Assembly (NCBI RefSeq): GCF_014696065.1
Contig: NZ_JACJPL010000027.1
Span: forward strand, 496,001-560,000
DNA: 64,000 bases
Reading direction: 5' to 3'
Origin: Leptolyngbya sp. FACHB-261
GTDB lineage: Bacteria > Cyanobacteriota > Cyanobacteriia > FACHB-261
Positions 3,674 through 24,493 of the stretch are shown in pieces. Numbering within the stretch: the stretch's first letter is position 1; every line of letters starts with the position of its first letter. The translations under genes and the position numbers were made by a program. The notes under the pieces were generated by a model that was not told the DNA's origin, did no database searches, and saw only the letters and a list, made by a program, of their open reading frames with translations.

Positions 3674-5149
<1,476 letters not shown>

Positions 5150-5934
5150 TCGGTCATCCTACCACCCGACACCCAGCTCTATCGCAGCCTTTACAAAATA
5201 AAAAGGCTGTACCAGCCTGAGTTGGGACAAGGCTCAGCGACACCCACCGATGTAAGGTATCTAATCTCTCAGCGTAAAGGCTGAATTTTCTGTGCATCAA
5301 TGGAATATGGAGTTACAGTCTTTATCTGATAGCTTACAATCGTCTCACAGGCTATCAGGCTCCTGCGAAGCACCTACTGCGGTGTAAATAGTAAGACTGC
5401 AACCTTTCTCCGAATAATTGCTGTTTCCACTTCAAAGCTAAAAAGGTAAGAGTTTAGGAAGGCAAACAGTCAGTTAACTAAAATAAAAAACTTCTATGAG
5501 CTGTGTTGGGGGAATTTAAGGCAGTTGCATCTCAGGAGAAACTTGAATGGAGCAATATTGCAGCTTCAGACTATCGATTCATTAGCTACTGATCATGTAT
5601 TCAGACCCTAATAACTTCCTTATGGCTTAACTTCTGCGTACTATTCACAACCGCTTCTGGAGCGATCTCTAGCTCCGAATACTAGAAGTGATTGAGAATT
5701 CATGACTTTACTCGAAGATTTGACCTCCGTGAACTGCTTTGAGCAAGCACCAGTTCGAGACTAAAAGTTCCGTCACAGCTCAAGATTCACGCTCTACATT
5801 GATAAGGCTAGAAAAAGCTACTAGCTATAACCTATAGGTTTTCTCAATTCCAATTAGTTAGCTCAATGTTCAAGTAATGGCTACCAGAGGAAGACTAAAG
5901 CAAGGTAGCGGCTCTATTAGAAAAGGACAGGATT
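5150..5934. other. 785-base non-coding region upstream of the hetP-family gene
   Basis: This region carries the thiC promoter at its left end and the leader of the HetP-family gene at its right end. A small hairpin (AGGCTG/CAGCCT) lies at 5204-5218. A perfect 12-base palindrome, AACCTATAGGTT, lies at 5829-5840, about 95 bases before the hetP-family start, and could be an operator. No GTAN8TAC NtcA box was found. No open frame here looks real. The length suggests a long 5' leader or an unrecognised small RNA. Confidence 0.5.
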
Positions 5935-17701: not shown

Positions 17702-17712
17702 TAAAAAAAGAG
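17702..17712 (-). terminator. T-run ending the SRP RNA
   Basis: Seven consecutive T on the minus strand follow the closing stem of the SRP RNA directly, so the RNA's own terminal stem plus this T-run act as the terminator. Confidence 0.6.
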
Positions 17713-17808
17713 TGACCCGGAGACCACGCCTATTCCAAGCATCCCGTAGTGCTGCTACCTTCCGGTCCTGACACGGTTTGGGCGTTGAAATCGCGTGGGT
17801 CCAGGTCT
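17713..17808 (-). ncRNA. ffs: Signal recognition particle RNA (bacterial small type)
   Basis: The minus strand contains the invariant SRP RNA tip, TGTCAGGACCGGAAGGTAGCAGCACT, here cited by its parts: GTCAGG, the GGAAG tetraloop block and AGCAGC (17745-17775). The flanks pair as a long hairpin: GACC, GGA and CCACGC on the 5' side with GCGTGG, TCC and GGTC on the 3' side. The length of about 95 nucleotides matches the 4.5S form. It works with Ffh to target nascent membrane proteins. The 60-codon frame that overlaps it is not a gene. Confidence 0.93.
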
Positions 17809-17947: not shown

Positions 17948-18019
17948 GCGGGTGTAGTTCAGTGGTAGAACGTCAGCTTCCCAAGCTGAATGTCGTGGGT
18001 TCGAGTCCCATCACCCGCT
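17948..18019 (+). tRNA. tRNA-Gly (anticodon CCC)
   Basis: A 72-nucleotide cloverleaf: acceptor GCGGGTG pairs with CACCCGC, discriminator T, D-arm GTTCAGTGGTAGAAC, anticodon arm TCAGC-TTCCCAA-GCTGA, T-arm GTGGGTTCGAGTCCCAT. The 7-base loop puts CCC at positions 34-36, so it reads GGG glycine codons. The 3' CCA is not encoded. Confidence 0.95.
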
Positions 18020-19215: not shown

Positions 19216-20529
19216 TTAATCAGCTGAGGCTTTAGACGAGGCCGGGAGCATCAGCTTTGACAGAATAAAGTAGAGCACCACCGCAGCAACAATACCGTTG
19301 ATCGGTTTGATGCCAGGTGCATAATAAGCGATGGCCGAGGCGACAATGTAGGCAATGATTCCTGCCCAGTTGAAGGCAGGTTGCGGCTCATCAAGGGCGG
19401 GAAATTGTCCTTTGTGCCGTAGCCAGTAGTCGGCCATAATCACGCCACCAATAGGTGGAATAAAGGTGCCGAGCAGGATGAGATAGGGCACCAGAAGCTT
19501 GTAAATGCCCCCCCAAGCCAGCACTAAAGCCATAGTTGCGCCGCCCAACACGAAAGCCGTGCGCTTGTTGGTACGGAACATGTGAGCACCGGCAACCGAG
19601 AAGGCATAGATGGTGTTGTCCTGAGTCGTCCACATGTTCAAAAACAGTAGAACCAAACCCCAGAAGAGGAGACCTTGGTAGGCCATTACCTGCACAATAT
19701 CTGAGCTGTCTGCAACTTCTGATACTCCCGAGTAGACGAGAGCGCAAAAGGCACCAGTAAAGATCAAAAAGCCATTAGCAAAAAAGAAGGCGCTGAGAGT
19801 GCTGACCGCCGCCGTGCGACCCGAATTGGCGAAGCGGCTCCAGTTGGTCGCCTGAGTTCCTCCCGAGATAAAGGTGCCGACAATGATTGTCAGGGCTGCA
19901 CCGGTCCCCATTTCGCCCTTGGGAATAATGGCCTGCAATCCCTCAAAGCCACCGACTTCTGCAGAGGCAATTGATAGGCTCCAAATCATCAGGATCAACA
20001 TTGCAGGCACAGCAATGCGGCTGAGCCAATCCATGGCTCGATAGCCAATGTAAGCCGTTGAGCAAAAGAAATAAGTAAAAAACAGAATGGTTAGCCAATT
20101 GAACGAAGTGGGTACTCCCGCCAGCTTGTTGAGCAAATCAGCAATCAAGGCAGAACCCCAGGCGTACCAACCAATCTGGGTAAAGCCTAAGAGGAAATCG
20201 ACCCAGCGCGAACCATAGCTGCCAAAACTAAAGCGAGCCATTAACACCGTGCTCAACCCTGTCCGGGCGGCAATGTAGCCCAGGGCTGAGGAGTAGCCAC
20301 CCAGGATCAGATTTCCAATGACAATTAAGCTGATGAGATCGGGCCAAAATCGAAACTCGGGTCCGACTAGGCCACCGGCAAAAAGCGTACCTGAGTAAAG
20401 AGTGAACCCCATCAGTAAGGGTGCGAGAGACCAGATTGATTTTCGAGCTTCTGGAGGTACCGCACTCAAGGGATAATCTTCGCCAGCCAAGGAGTGCTCG
20501 GCTGGCTGTTGTTCTGAGGTCGTCGCCAT
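19216..20529 (-). CDS. NCS1-family cytosine/purine permease (CodB-like)
   Basis: An integral membrane transporter of 437 residues with about twelve hydrophobic segments, the size and layout of the NCS1 nucleobase:cation symporter family. CodB-like features include the N-terminal SAVPPEARKSIWSLAPLLMG, the repeated helix-break glycine pairs and a DYWLRHKG loop near the end. NCS1 members import cytosine, allantoin, hydantoins, hydroxymethylpyrimidine or purines, so the substrate cannot be fixed. It is the last gene of an operon with an ABC permease, an isochorismatase-type hydrolase and a cupin, under an NtcA-type promoter, so a nitrogen-rich small molecule is the likely cargo. Confidence 0.88.
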   Translation of the reverse strand: MATTSEQQPAEHSLAGEDYPLSAVPPEARKSIWSLAPLLMGFTLYSGTLFAGGLVGPEFRFWPDLISLIVIGNLILGGYSSALGYIAARTGLSTVLMARFSFGSYGSRWVDFLLGFTQIGWYAWGSALIADLLNKLAGVPTSFNWLTILFFTYFFCSTAYIGYRAMDWLSRIAVPAMLILMIWSLSIASAEVGGFEGLQAIIPKGEMGTGAALTIIVGTFISGGTQATNWSRFANSGRTAAVSTLSAFFFANGFLIFTGAFCALVYSGVSEVADSSDIVQVMAYQGLLFWGLVLLFLNMWTTQDNTIYAFSVAGAHMFRTNKRTAFVLGGATMALVLAWGGIYKLLVPYLILLGTFIPPIGGVIMADYWLRHKGQFPALDEPQPAFNWAGIIAYIVASAIAYYAPGIKPINGIVAAVVLYFILSKLMLPASSKASAD

Positions 20530-20634: not shown

Positions 20635-21066
20635 TTATCGTCTCAGAACCAATAGATCTTCTTCATCCAGTTCCACCGGTGTGCCACCCCGAATCAGCTC
20701 TGCAAAATCCTCGTTGGGAACCATTGTGCAGAGCGCATACAAACGATCTGAGCCAGTATTTTCAATAATGTGAGTGCCAGTTGGGGGCACAAGCACACTA
20801 TCGCCAGCGCGAATCGGCATCACTTTGCCATCACACATCGCTAGCCCTTCACCTTTAAGGATGAAGAACATTTCAACGGCATACTGGTGTCGATTAGGAG
20901 GTGTTCGGCCACCAATATCGTAAATCTCGACGCAGCAGGTAAACGACACATTATCGGTCATGGGATCAAAGACGATCGCCAGACGATTGGTATCGTGTGG
21001 ACTGATTCGAAAGGCTTGATAAGACTCAGGAGACTTTACAGTTGGAATGACACATTGAGGAACCAT
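20635..21066 (-). CDS. Cupin-domain protein
   Basis: A 143-residue single-domain cupin. The metal-binding motif is seen as NRHQYAVEMFFILKGEG, with a second half around PTGTHIIENTGS. Small cupins act as isomerases, dioxygenases, hydrolases or ligand sensors, so no reaction is assigned. Its ATG overlaps the stop codon of the hydrolase (TAATG), which implies translational coupling and a shared job. The NCS1 permease follows after 105 bases. Confidence 0.85.
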   Translation of the reverse strand: MVPQCVIPTVKSPESYQAFRISPHDTNRLAIVFDPMTDNVSFTCCVEIYDIGGRTPPNRHQYAVEMFFILKGEGLAMCDGKVMPIRAGDSVLVPPTGTHIIENTGSDRLYALCTMVPNEDFAELIRGGTPVELDEEDLLVLRR

Positions 21067-21851
21067 TAGGATTTGCCTTCCACAGAGGTAAGTGCAGCCA
21101 GAATCTCGCAGGAGTCAGTCACAAAACCGAAGCACTGCTTCACGTTATAGAGCGTTGCTTGCATACAGAACTCTGGCGAAGTTGTTGCTGTGCAATCGCT
21201 AAGTAGCAAGCAGTCGTAGCCAAGAAAATTAGCATCTTGCAGAGTTGCCATTACGCACTGGTCAGCGTTAACTCCTGCAAAAAACAGCGTAGTCCGGCCT
21301 AGGTTACGCAGAATACTATCAAGAGGCGTATCCCAGAAGCCGCTCATCCGATATTTGTCCACGCGAATATCGCTGGGATCAGGTGCTAGTTCGTCCACTA
21401 CCGCTGCCGCCCAACTACCGACGGTTAGAACCGGAGAATTATTGCTAGGCAATGGATCGCCTAAACCAACCCCTTCGCCGGTTGGCTTATAGACATGACG
21501 CAGCCCAGCACTGATATTTAGCAGATCAGGTCGGTTGCCCCAGTTAACCCAGATAATCGGAACTTGAGCCGTTCGCAATACAGGCAGCAGAGTTTTCAGC
21601 GGACCGATAGGCTCACGGGCCGGAGTCACATCAACGCCAATGTGGTCAAGCCAGCCACCTAGAGTGCAGAAGTCGTTCTGCATATCAATGACGAGAATCG
21701 CCGCTTTAGCTAGGTCTAAACGGACTGTTTTAGTGGCAGTCGCTAGCGTGAGCGGTCGTGGTTCGAGAGCGGGCCTAGTGAGATCAGCACTGAGCGCATC
21801 CACAGACCAGGCATTAGGAGGAACACCAAGCGTACGCAGAGATGAGTCCAT
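21066..21851 (-). CDS. Isochorismatase-family cysteine hydrolase
   Basis: From the ATG at 21851 the protein has 261 residues. A longer frame reaching 21935 would overlap the permease and adds a non-conserved start, so I trim it. The catalytic triad of the family is visible: Asp in VIDMQNDF, Lys in VDKYRMSGF and Cys in GVNADQCVMATL. The family includes RutB-type ureidoacrylate amidohydrolases, biuret and N-carbamoyl amidases and nicotinamidases, which release ammonia or carbamate. With two transporters and a cupin under NtcA control, hydrolysis of an imported nitrogen compound is the best reading; the exact substrate is unknown. Confidence 0.88.
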   Translation of the reverse strand: MDSSLRTLGVPPNAWSVDALSADLTRPALEPRPLTLATATKTVRLDLAKAAILVIDMQNDFCTLGGWLDHIGVDVTPAREPIGPLKTLLPVLRTAQVPIIWVNWGNRPDLLNISAGLRHVYKPTGEGVGLGDPLPSNNSPVLTVGSWAAAVVDELAPDPSDIRVDKYRMSGFWDTPLDSILRNLGRTTLFFAGVNADQCVMATLQDANFLGYDCLLLSDCTATTSPEFCMQATLYNVKQCFGFVTDSCEILAALTSVEGKS

Positions 21852-21864
21852 TGGATTCGAACAC

Positions 21865-22731
21865 CTAATTTTCTTGTTTAACTGCGCTTTCATGCCAGTT
21901 TCGAAGCGCAAAGTCTGAAACGAGCGAGAGCACAATAAAAATCAGAACTCCTAGCCCTGTGGTCAGCACTAAGGCCGCAAACATGCGGGGGATTTGCAAG
22001 TTGTAGCTGGCTTGAAGAATTTGGTACGCGATCCCTGCCTTCGAGCCTCCCGTACCTGCAACAAATTCGGCCACAACTGCGCCGATCAGGGCCAGTCCGC
22101 CGCTGATGCGTAAGCCGCCTAGGAAGTAGGGCATGGCACTCGGCAAGCGTAACCGCAGTAGAGTTTGCCAGCGGGACGCTCGATAGAGTTGAAACAAATT
22201 GCGCAGATTATGATCGGTGCTGTTAAGGCCTAAAGTTGTATTTGCAACAATTGGAAATAAAGCAACTAGCCAGGCACAGGTGACTAAAGCAGCTTCGGTA
22301 TTATCACGAAACCAAATCACAATCAGTGGGGCAATGGCAACAATGGGTGTGGTCTGAAGGATGACCGCGTAGGGGAATAAGCTGCGCTCGATCCATTTAT
22401 TTTGAGTAAATAGAATTGCAATTAGAACCCCTGAGACAACAGCCGCAATAAAGGCAAATACTGTGATCCTAAAGGTAATTAGCAAAGAAGAGAAAAGTAC
22501 ATTCCAATCGCTGATTAAAGCTCTAATAACCGCTAAAGGCCCTGGCAAAATGTAAGGCGGAACCTGGCTGAAGCGCACACCGATGTCCCATAACAGCAGC
22601 GCAACTATCCCTACACCTACTGGTGCCAGTACATCAATAATTTGGGATGAGCTTAGCCCACGACTGCCCATGTTCTTTGCTGGAGTTTTTCTAAGCTCTG
22701 ACACTGACGTTGCAACTCTCGGCTCAGGCAT
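21865..22731 (-). CDS. ABC transporter permease (NitT/TauT/SsuC type)
   Basis: A 288-residue inner-membrane permease with six predicted helices and a conserved coupling loop (EAALVTCAWLVALFPIVANT; then LFQLYRASRWQTLLRLRLPSAMPYFLGGLR, an EAA motif, given here in two parts). It belongs to the group that serves nitrate, taurine, sulphonate, riboflavin or thiamine-precursor importers. No ATPase or substrate-binding protein is encoded next to it, so it must borrow partners from elsewhere. It is the first gene of the operon, with the hydrolase starting 14 bases after its stop. The promoter is at 22767-22810. Confidence 0.92.
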   Translation of the reverse strand: MPEPRVATSVSELRKTPAKNMGSRGLSSSQIIDVLAPVGVGIVALLLWDIGVRFSQVPPYILPGPLAVIRALISDWNVLFSSLLITFRITVFAFIAAVVSGVLIAILFTQNKWIERSLFPYAVILQTTPIVAIAPLIVIWFRDNTEAALVTCAWLVALFPIVANTTLGLNSTDHNLRNLFQLYRASRWQTLLRLRLPSAMPYFLGGLRISGGLALIGAVVAEFVAGTGGSKAGIAYQILQASYNLQIPRMFAALVLTTGLGVLIFIVLSLVSDFALRNWHESAVKQEN

Positions 22732-22766
22732 GGTAGAACTCTGCTTTGAAGGTTGCTGGCACCTAC

Positions 22767-22810
22767 AAACTTACGAAGAGGCTTTAACCTAGTTTGTAGC
22801 TGAAGTTACA
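22767..22810 (-). promoter_or_regulatory. NtcA-activated promoter of the permease-hydrolase-cupin-NCS1 operon
   Basis: On the minus strand a perfect TGTAN8TACA box (22795-22810) is followed, 22 bases after GTAN8TAC, by TAAGTT at 22768-22773, a TAN3T -10 element. This GTAN8TAC-N22-TAN3T arrangement is the textbook NtcA class II promoter. The start point would be near 22761, about 30 bases before the permease ATG. NtcA activates under nitrogen limitation when 2-oxoglutarate is high. The same box ends 10 bases before the ATG of the divergent oxygenase and may also affect that gene. Confidence 0.85.
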
Positions 22811-22819
22811 TTTTTGCAC

Positions 22820-23779
22820 ATGCCAAACACTGCTAACTTGATCCCCCTGATTGATTTCAGACTATTTACAAACGGCAATACTACCGAGCGGCAGGCTATT
22901 GTGGCTGAGTTTTATCGAGCCTGTCATGACATTGGTTTTATCTATCTTAAGAACCACAGTGTACCAAAGCCTTTAATCGAGGAGTTATTTGCCCAAGCTA
23001 AATATTTTTTTGACTTGGAAACCTCAGCCAAACAGCAGATTGCTTGGTCAAGCGAGGTAGGCAATCGGGGCTATGTTGGCTTTGGCCGAGAGCAGTTAGA
23101 TCCGGGCGGTTCTACTGATTTGAAGGAAGCATTTAATGTTGGTATAGAGCTCGATTCTGCCCAGATTGCTGAGCATTCTCAGGCACTCATCACTAATCAA
23201 TGGCCCTCGGAATTACCCGATTTTCGTGAGACAGTTCTGGAGTTTTATCAAACTTGTACGCAGGCGTCATTGGAGATCCTAAGAGCCTTTGCCACTGCAC
23301 TGGATTTGCCGGAAACCTTCTTCGACGATAAACACAATCCAGGCGATAACACGCTGCGCTTACTGCACTATCCTGCATCAGCAGTGGCAGCAGATACAGA
23401 GCAAATTCGGGCTGGAGTTCACTCTGACTACGGCAGCATTACCCTTCTGTTTCAAGATGAAGTTGGCGGGCTAGAAGTGTGCACAACTTGGGGAGAATGG
23501 ATACGGGCGCCATACATCCCCGACACCATCGTTGTAAACACAGGCGATTTGATGCAACGCTGGACCAACGATGTCTTTGTCTCGACCAAGCATCGAGTGG
23601 TTAGCCCTGCTGGTCCTAGCGCCTTGCGCTCCCGCTACTCGGTAGCCTTTTTTTGTCATCCCAACACCGACACGGTAGTTACTTGTCTGCCCAGTTGCCA
23701 AAATTCAGACCGCCCAGCTCTACATCCCCCGATTCAAGCTGGGGAGTACTTGTCGAGCCGTTTGCAAGCAACTTACTAG
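22820..23779 (+). CDS. 2-oxoglutarate/Fe(II)-dependent oxygenase (isopenicillin N synthase family)
   Basis: From the ATG at 22820 the protein has 319 residues; a TTG two codons earlier is possible. The N-terminal DIOX_N segment (PLIDFRLF, DIGFIYLKNHSV) precedes the jelly-roll core. The iron ligands are His and Asp in GVHSDYG and His in STKHRVV, and the 2-oxoglutarate ligand is Arg in SRYSVAFF, so the enzyme should be active. Family members hydroxylate or desaturate small molecules, including amino acids and nucleobase-related compounds. It is divergent from the NtcA operon and probably acts on the same compound or its product; that is inference. Confidence 0.88.
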   Translation: MPNTANLIPLIDFRLFTNGNTTERQAIVAEFYRACHDIGFIYLKNHSVPKPLIEELFAQAKYFFDLETSAKQQIAWSSEVGNRGYVGFGREQLDPGGSTDLKEAFNVGIELDSAQIAEHSQALITNQWPSELPDFRETVLEFYQTCTQASLEILRAFATALDLPETFFDDKHNPGDNTLRLLHYPASAVAADTEQIRAGVHSDYGSITLLFQDEVGGLEVCTTWGEWIRAPYIPDTIVVNTGDLMQRWTNDVFVSTKHRVVSPAGPSALRSRYSVAFFCHPNTDTVVTCLPSCQNSDRPALHPPIQAGEYLSSRLQATY

Positions 23780-23838: not shown

Positions 23839-23867
23839 TTGACCTAGGAAGGGCCAAACCGTAAAAT
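23839..23867 (+). promoter_or_regulatory. Promoter of the gifB-like gene
   Basis: TTGACC at 23839-23844 and TAAAAT at 23862-23867 are separated by 17 bases, a good sigma-70-type promoter. Transcription would begin near 23874, a few bases before the riboswitch aptamer. Confidence 0.65.
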
Positions 23868-23874
23868 AGGATAC
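23861..23874 (+). promoter_or_regulatory. NtcA box over the -10 element (repressing position)
   Basis: GTAAAATAGGATAC is an exact GTAN8TAC. It lies on top of the -10 hexamer, so bound NtcA would block RNA polymerase. This is the logic known for gifA and gifB in Synechocystis, which NtcA represses under nitrogen starvation. Confidence 0.75.
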
Positions 23875-23879
23875 AGAAA

Positions 23880-23965
23880 CGAATTCGTTCATCCCCTCCA
23901 GTGCTCTGACTGGGTGCTTCAGGGAGACGGAAGTAGGGAGATATCCCGAAGGAACGCGCCTCACA
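23880..23965 (+). promoter_or_regulatory. Glutamine riboswitch (glnA RNA motif)
   Basis: The leader has the conserved blocks of the glutamine aptamer in order: CGTTCATC, GACGGAAGTAGGGAGA, then CCCGAAGGAACGC. CGTTC (23886-23890) pairs with GAACG (23952-23956) to close P1. Glutamine riboswitches of this type are known to turn on gifB-like genes in cyanobacteria when glutamine is plentiful. The gene start is about 30 bases downstream, so control is probably at translation. Confidence 0.92.
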
Positions 23966-23995
23966 TCACTACAACGTTTTCAAGAGGCGAAGACC

Positions 23996-24493
23996 ATGAA
24001 ATTAACGTATCGCGGTGTCAGTCACGACTACACTCCTCCTGCTGTAGAGCCCATGGGTGAAGGGACTCAGGGTAAGTACCGAGGTTTAGACTGGCGGTTC
24101 CGCAACCTGAGACATCCCTTTGTGCAACAAGCCACCCTAGACCTGAAGTATCGCGGTGTTGCTTATCGCACAGGTCCAGTAACACCTTTGGCACCTGAAG
24201 TTGTGGCTCCCGTTGCGCCTGTAGCACGTCAGGTTGCTCCCCAGGCTGAACCCACTCCGGCACTGTCCATGTCTGTCCCTGCCATGGCTGTCCGTTCCGC
24301 TCATGAAGAAGCGCGCTTATTGATGATGGGCCACCATCGATCGATCAAGAATCGCGAACAATCCTTGCTGAGTCGCTCGGCAGCGGAAGTCGGTTTAGCA
24401 GCTGATGTGACCCAATTCTGGAACCACATCCAAGGTAAAGTTCACCCCAGCTTCCGAGCAACCTACGACCGTAGCCATGCGGCTATGAGCTAA
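23996..24493 (+). CDS. gifB: Glutamine synthetase inactivating factor, GifB (IF17)-like, with DUF4278 N-terminus
   Basis: A 165-residue protein with two parts. Residues 1-60 are a DUF4278 domain with two copies of a KYRGxxYR-type motif (MKLTYRGVSHDY and LDLKYRGVAYRTG). A Pro/Ala/Val-rich linker (62-95) leads to residues 100-165, which match the inactivating factors IF7/IF17: EARLLMMGHHRSIKNREQS, then AAEVG and SFRATYDRSHA. These basic factors bind and inhibit glutamine synthetase type I. The ATG follows GAGG at good spacing. Upstream lie an NtcA box in repressing position and a glutamine riboswitch; downstream is a strong terminator. The gene therefore reads both 2-oxoglutarate and glutamine. 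The function rests on remembered similarity and on this regulatory context. Confidence 0.87.
   Translation: MKLTYRGVSHDYTPPAVEPMGEGTQGKYRGLDWRFRNLRHPFVQQATLDLKYRGVAYRTGPVTPLAPEVVAPVAPVARQVAPQAEPTPALSMSVPAMAVRSAHEEARLLMMGHHRSIKNREQSLLSRSAAEVGLAADVTQFWNHIQGKVHPSFRATYDRSHAAMS

Follow-up and report, generated by a model that had tools for sequence, protein, structure and literature searches.

A predicted NtcA class II promoter before a permease, hydrolase, cupin and NCS1 gene row with a probable role in nucleobase use in Leptolyngbya sp. FACHB-261

The window analysed here, i.e. the whole 64-kb stretch of DNA, carries on its minus strand a row of four genes. The first one encodes an ABC importer permease (21865-22731), recognised by its BPD_transp_1 domain and by orthologs in clusters of a binding protein (SBP), ATPase, permease and cytosine deaminase. 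It is followed by an isochorismatase-fold cysteine hydrolase resembling RutB and BiuH (21066-21851), by a small single-domain cupin (20635-21066) whose gene overlaps the hydrolase stop, and by an NCS1 transporter (19216-20529). The longest open reading frame of the hydrolase spans 21066-21935; because homology begins only at residue 28-29 of this frame, the likely start is the ATG at 21851, 13 bases past the permease stop. A gap of 105 bases precedes the NCS1 gene, and as a scan of this gap gave no terminator match, co-transcription of NCS1 with the permease, hydrolase and cupin genes is plausible. No riboswitch of the TPP or guanidine type was found that could control the operon. Elsewhere in the window, a TPP riboswitch lies at 5055-5153 on the minus strand, and a small SRP RNA (17711-17807) and a tRNA (17948-18019) are located near the downstream side of the operon.

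Upstream of the permease gene, an intergenic region of 88 bp separates it from a divergent 2OG-Fe(II) oxygenase gene (22820-23779, plus strand). This region contains the putative NtcA box TGTAACTTCAGCTACA (22795-22810, minus strand; core GTAN8TAC at 22796-22809). NtcA-activated promoters of cyanobacteria typically consist of GTAN8TAC, 20-24 bases and TAN3T, and in class II promoters the NtcA-dependent start lies about 41.5 bases from the box centre. On the minus strand, TGTAN8TACA is followed 22 bases after the TAC by the -10 element TAAGTT (22773-22768), and a further 36 bases lead to the permease ATG at 22731. From the class II geometry, transcription would be predicted to start at 22759-22763; with a start near 22761, the leader would measure about 30 bases. 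These elements had been named in the original prediction, and both coordinates and spacing proved exact to the base. The genome encodes one clear NtcA (391 bits against a cut-off of 245).

To what the operon might contribute was approached through its gene families. In the case of the hydrolase, the scores against the RutB model (148.6 bits, cut-off 377.95) and the BiuH model (128.6 bits, cut-off 370) fall far under both family cut-offs, which rules out an assignment as either enzyme. The aspartate, lysine and cysteine of IDMQND, DKYRMSGF and NADQC, respectively, align with RutB and are presumably the catalytic triad. The cupin is its conserved partner: of 80 named cyanobacterial loci, 76 have the two genes side by side, and two of the four exceptions end at a contig edge. 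Usual neighbours of the pair are an 8-oxoguanine-deaminase-like amidohydrolase, often divergent, and sometimes RidA. A permease, NCS1, oxygenase or gif gene stood beside the pair in none of the 80 loci, so the arrangement in the window is, as far as tested among these loci, specific to its own lineage. Two other BiuH-like paralogs are encoded in the genome (335 and 245 bits); at C31:493-496 kb (L334 8013-11060) a BiuH-like paralog lies beside genes for a nucleoside-type ABC ATPase and a binding protein, and two GTAN8TAC boxes are found in the vicinity. The NCS1 protein scores above the cut-off of the CodB cytosine permease model PRK11017 (464.9 bits, cut-off 326), and we therefore describe it as a predicted CodB-like cytosine permease.

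Important insight could be gained from the permease orthologs (64-77% identity): in many cyanobacteria, genes for a binding protein and an ATPase precede them, and a cytosine deaminase (PRK07583, 671 bits, cut-off 403) and an FAD oxidase often come next. Exactly one permease of this type occurs in the genome, the next best reaching 32%. The only close binding protein (69%), of the NMT1/THI5-like family, and an adjacent ATPase come from another part of the same contig, at a distance of 277 kb (C27:795-798 kb; L179 7413-9632), where no permease stands beside them. The permease had previously been taken for an orphan; this was mistaken in a functional sense, since its matching binding protein and ATPase are present in the genome and would supply the parts of a complete importer. 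A further GTAN8TAC box, GTAGCACCAGCTAC, lies 90 bp before the start of the distant binding protein gene, with no exact TAN3T at class II distance. The most economical explanation is a transporter split in two, both halves of which may be under NtcA.

Only 7 of the 292 genomes used for this family have an NCS1 ortholog (the other co-occurrence sets comprised 386 genomes), and the surroundings of these genes are informative. In one relative (L193 2260-7582), the gene row reads URC1, URC4, UPRT, a ureidoglycolate-lyase-like gene and NCS1, which suggests a complete uracil catabolic cluster. In this row, URC1 consists of GTP_CH_N plus GTP cyclohydrolase II and URC4 of DUF1688, and we take the names URC1, URC4 and UPRT to be those of the yeast URC pathway. 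A second relative has a uracil phosphoribosyltransferase and a ureidoglycolate-lyase-like gene close to NCS1. Genes of the ureidoglycolate-lyase family were seen repeatedly, either near NCS1 (L191, L193) or between the hydrolase and the cupin (L038 10907-11398). The genome studied here has its own URC1-URC4-UPRT operon on a different contig and also encodes a cytosine deaminase of the CodA type (569 bits, cut-off 483); no exact NtcA box was found within 400 bp upstream of either. In counts that ignore phylogeny, all 7 genomes with NCS1 also have URC1; the corresponding counts are 13 of 13 for the 2OG oxygenase and the hydrolase, and 25 of 31 (4.9 expected) for URC1 and the hydrolase. All three associations hold at the genus level. 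Altogether, the operon genes point most likely to pyrimidine-type nucleobases as the imported substrate. The earlier proposal that the operon takes in and breaks down a nitrogen compound is thus supported by the gene families and can be narrowed to this class.

An NtcA-activated operon could also serve a non-pyrimidine substrate, e.g. biuret, another ureido or amide compound, a purine breakdown product or the pyrimidine precursor of thiamine. Such a substrate would agree with a hydrolase about equally near BiuH and RutB, with the frequent divergent orientation of its orthologs and the 8-oxoguanine-deaminase-like amidohydrolase, and with the NMT1/THI5-like binding protein, but NCS1 fits CodB far better than CytX (465 versus 75 bits), the permease orthologs adjoin cytosine deaminase, neither the operon nor the SBP locus is preceded by a TPP riboswitch, and two other BiuH-like paralogs are encoded elsewhere in the genome. 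We consider a non-pyrimidine substrate unlikely, though a serious contender, and retain pyrimidine-type nucleobases as the preferred substrate.

The promoter region has a second side, because the palindrome ends 9 bp before the ATG of the divergent oxygenase gene. The best solved match of this oxygenase is the Neurospora thymine 7-hydroxylase (E 8e-62, 213 bits, 38% identity over 313 aligned columns). When residue roles described for that enzyme were used for comparison (PMC4787775), the iron ligands H214/D216/H271 were found to be kept, and so were R190, R286 and N87, the 2OG ligands included, and the two residues that stack on the substrate, Y217 and F292. The residues with water-mediated substrate contacts were changed (E122 to Q, N294 to H). 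Overall, the predicted protein resembles a thymine 7-hydroxylase. An ethylene-forming or guanidine-producing 2OG enzyme was considered and rejected, as the best chain labelled ethylene-forming reached 155 bits against 213 for thymine 7-hydroxylase.

Read on the plus strand, the palindrome is also class II-like, GTAGCTGAAGTTAC-N24-TAACTT. As this -10 element and the predicted start fall within the oxygenase coding region, the palindrome cannot activate the oxygenase in class II fashion. The regulation foreseen in the original prediction seems largely right for the operon, and what it missed is the divergent oxygenase sharing the 88-bp intergenic region. Promoters repressed by NtcA, with a GTAN8TAC box downstream of the -35 element, have been described (PMC3898017). 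It is accordingly conceivable that the site serves mainly to repress the oxygenase, whether or not it also activates the operon: at 9 bp from the ATG, bound NtcA would overlap any oxygenase promoter or start, and class II activation on this side is excluded. Against this, the minus-strand geometry is that of a full activating promoter and a scan of the 88-bp region recognised no oxygenase promoter, for which reason repression is put forward as a hypothesis only. We regard it as rather improbable as the main role, and activation of the permease operon is kept as the leading interpretation of the site. The idea that one palindromic NtcA site works as a two-way switch, turning nucleobase uptake and hydrolysis up under nitrogen limitation and, through a block of the divergent promoter, turning down an oxygenase that would itself consume the NtcA effector 2-oxoglutarate, is likewise speculative and rather doubtful. 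If it were true, together with the split importer, the other half of which also stands behind a putative NtcA box, and the URC operon, it would describe an NtcA-run pyrimidine-scavenging regulon in cyanobacteria, and this regulon would include a route from thymine to uracil that is mostly known from fungi.

Next along the plus strand lies a locus with a bearing on nitrogen control. A promoter-like site, TTGACC-N17-TAAAAT, is overlapped at its -10 element by a GTAN8TAC box (23861-23874; site and box together 23839-23874), a geometry of repression. It is followed by a glutamine riboswitch (23884-23960; RF01739, 49.1 bits) and by a gene (23996-24493) with domain matches to an N-terminal DUF4278 and the glutamine synthetase inactivating factor IF7A (gif gene). 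Thus, the stretch 23839-24493 looks like an NtcA-repressed gif locus with a complete gif control region, and the oxygenase and the operon would consequently adjoin an established kind of nitrogen-control gene.

Motif statistics were calculated for the window and the genome (6.95 Mb in 36 contigs). The window has a single TGTAN8TACA (about 0.8 expected) and six GTAN8TAC (5.0 +/- 2.4 in shuffles). Genome-wide, there are 719 GTAN8TAC sites and, on both strands, 107 matches to the full class II pattern, i.e. about one per 65 kb. With about one match per window, the class II motif by itself is at chance level and is weak evidence. Placement is more telling. The chance of a class II site with 8-60 bases from its -10 element to a gene start is about 4e-4 per gene, or about 0.02 over the roughly 50 genes of the window. 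A positional test was carried out on the stretches around 97 of the 107 matches, leaving out the two of the window itself. Of these 97 sites, 17 are intergenic and have a gene start 8-60 bases downstream, with about 5 expected; the corresponding rate was 4.0% for random positions (p=3.5e-7) and 5.4% for the stricter control of TAN3T-anchored positions (p=1.6e-5). Because only about 5 of the 17 are expected by chance, roughly two thirds of the class II sites so placed should be functional.

The genes behind class II sites include, at short distance, a type III glutamine synthetase, a PreA-like dihydropyrimidine dehydrogenase and a class III aminotransferase, and, at longer distance to the start of the longest open reading frame, glnA, a beta-aspartyl peptidase and an MSMEG_0569 flavoprotein; labelling such genes as nitrogen-related is partly our own judgement. 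Among them, glnA is a known NtcA target (PMC3898017). The PreA-like gene (C1:28585; L246/L326) has a full class II match with 34 bases from the -10 element to the start. The type III glutamine synthetase behind a class II match belongs to a gene row at C26:222-234 kb (L330 1883-12001), where it comes after glutamine amidotransferase/glutamate-synthase-like genes and before an amino acid permease and an Amt-like gene; the row resembles an N-methylglutamate synthase cluster. Upstream of hydrolase orthologs, GTAN8TAC is not enriched (6 of 79, 4.9 in shuffles), and before SBP, NCS1 and 2OG oxygenase orthologs only scattered GTAN8TAC were seen, exact boxes being rare in front of the SBP and NCS1 orthologs.

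The palindrome might still match by chance, or be a weak NtcA site that does not activate, with another promoter driving the operon, as would be compatible with the 107 matches genome-wide, about 5 of 97 of them placed 8-60 bp before a gene by chance, and with the missing conservation of the box at hydrolase orthologs; in view of the exact 22-base spacing, the TGTA/TACA flanks, the 30-base leader, the mere 0.02 such placements expected in the window, the genome-wide positional enrichment, the nitrogen-related genes behind other sites and the second box before the partner SBP, we hold this to be the least likely of the readings considered. Since sites of this kind are enriched before gene starts and NtcA is present, activation of the permease operon by NtcA from the site at 22795-22810 is quite probable. 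A canonical NtcA class II promoter, as originally predicted, is thereby well supported in silico by the exact geometry, the encoded NtcA and the positional enrichment.

Combining these observations, we propose that an NtcA class II promoter drives the permease, hydrolase and cupin genes, and probably NCS1, and that their products serve nucleobase import and nitrogen release. For this reading as a whole, which is drawn from sequence comparison, we estimate a probability of about 0.55. 2-Oxoglutarate is the effector of NtcA; under nitrogen limitation, its level would rise, NtcA would bind at 22795-22810 and RNA polymerase would be recruited to TAAGTT. The permease, hydrolase, cupin and perhaps NCS1 would then be made. 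The permease may assemble with the distant binding protein and ATPase, the partners being present in the genome, and NCS1 could act as a second, cation-driven importer. Both importers would bring in cytosine- or uracil-type nucleobases, which the cytosine deaminase and the products of URC1-URC4-UPRT, all encoded in the genome, might process. Finally, the RutB/BiuH-like hydrolase and the cupin would free nitrogen from a ureido-type intermediate.

There is little documentation of cyanobacteria that use dissolved nucleobases as a nitrogen source. In the open-access literature searched, NtcA was not linked to cytosine deaminase in any paper, none was evidently on uracil catabolism in cyanobacteria, and we found no description of this operon composition as an NtcA target. 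The locus joins five gene families that are kept apart in relatives, which makes for a testable pathway, and it gives a candidate function for the hydrolase-cupin pair, which is widespread in cyanobacteria.

Several known systems can be compared with the locus. Like the NtcA class II promoters of glnA, nirA and urtA, the site has GTAN8TAC, 20-24 bases, TAN3T and a short leader, here as predicted elements. With the Rut pathway (RutB ureidoacrylate amidohydrolase, RutG permease) it shares a RutB-like cysteine hydrolase and a predicted nucleobase transporter, and RidA stands beside some hydrolase orthologs; the differences are a hydrolase under the RutB cut-off, NCS1 in the place of RutG, and no RutA or RutF recognised in the locus. 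In the case of URC uracil catabolism (URC1, URC4, UPRT), the operon lies in the same genome outside the window, and NCS1 orthologs adjoin URC genes in a relative. Compared to the cyanobacterial SBP-ATPase-permease-cytosine deaminase clusters, orthologs of permease, SBP and ATPase are all present, but here the permease gene has parted from the other two and stands with hydrolase, cupin and NCS1; a deaminase of the PRK07583 type is absent, and a CodA-type enzyme is encoded elsewhere in the genome. The oxygenase keeps the ligands and stacking residues of the fungal thymine 7-hydroxylase (NcT7H, PDB 5c3p), from which it differs by Q at E122, H at N294 and its bacterial context. As a whole, the promoter type is well known, whereas the combination of known nucleobase genes behind a predicted NtcA class II promoter, together with the link to importer parts from a locus at a distance of 277 kb, seems to be new.
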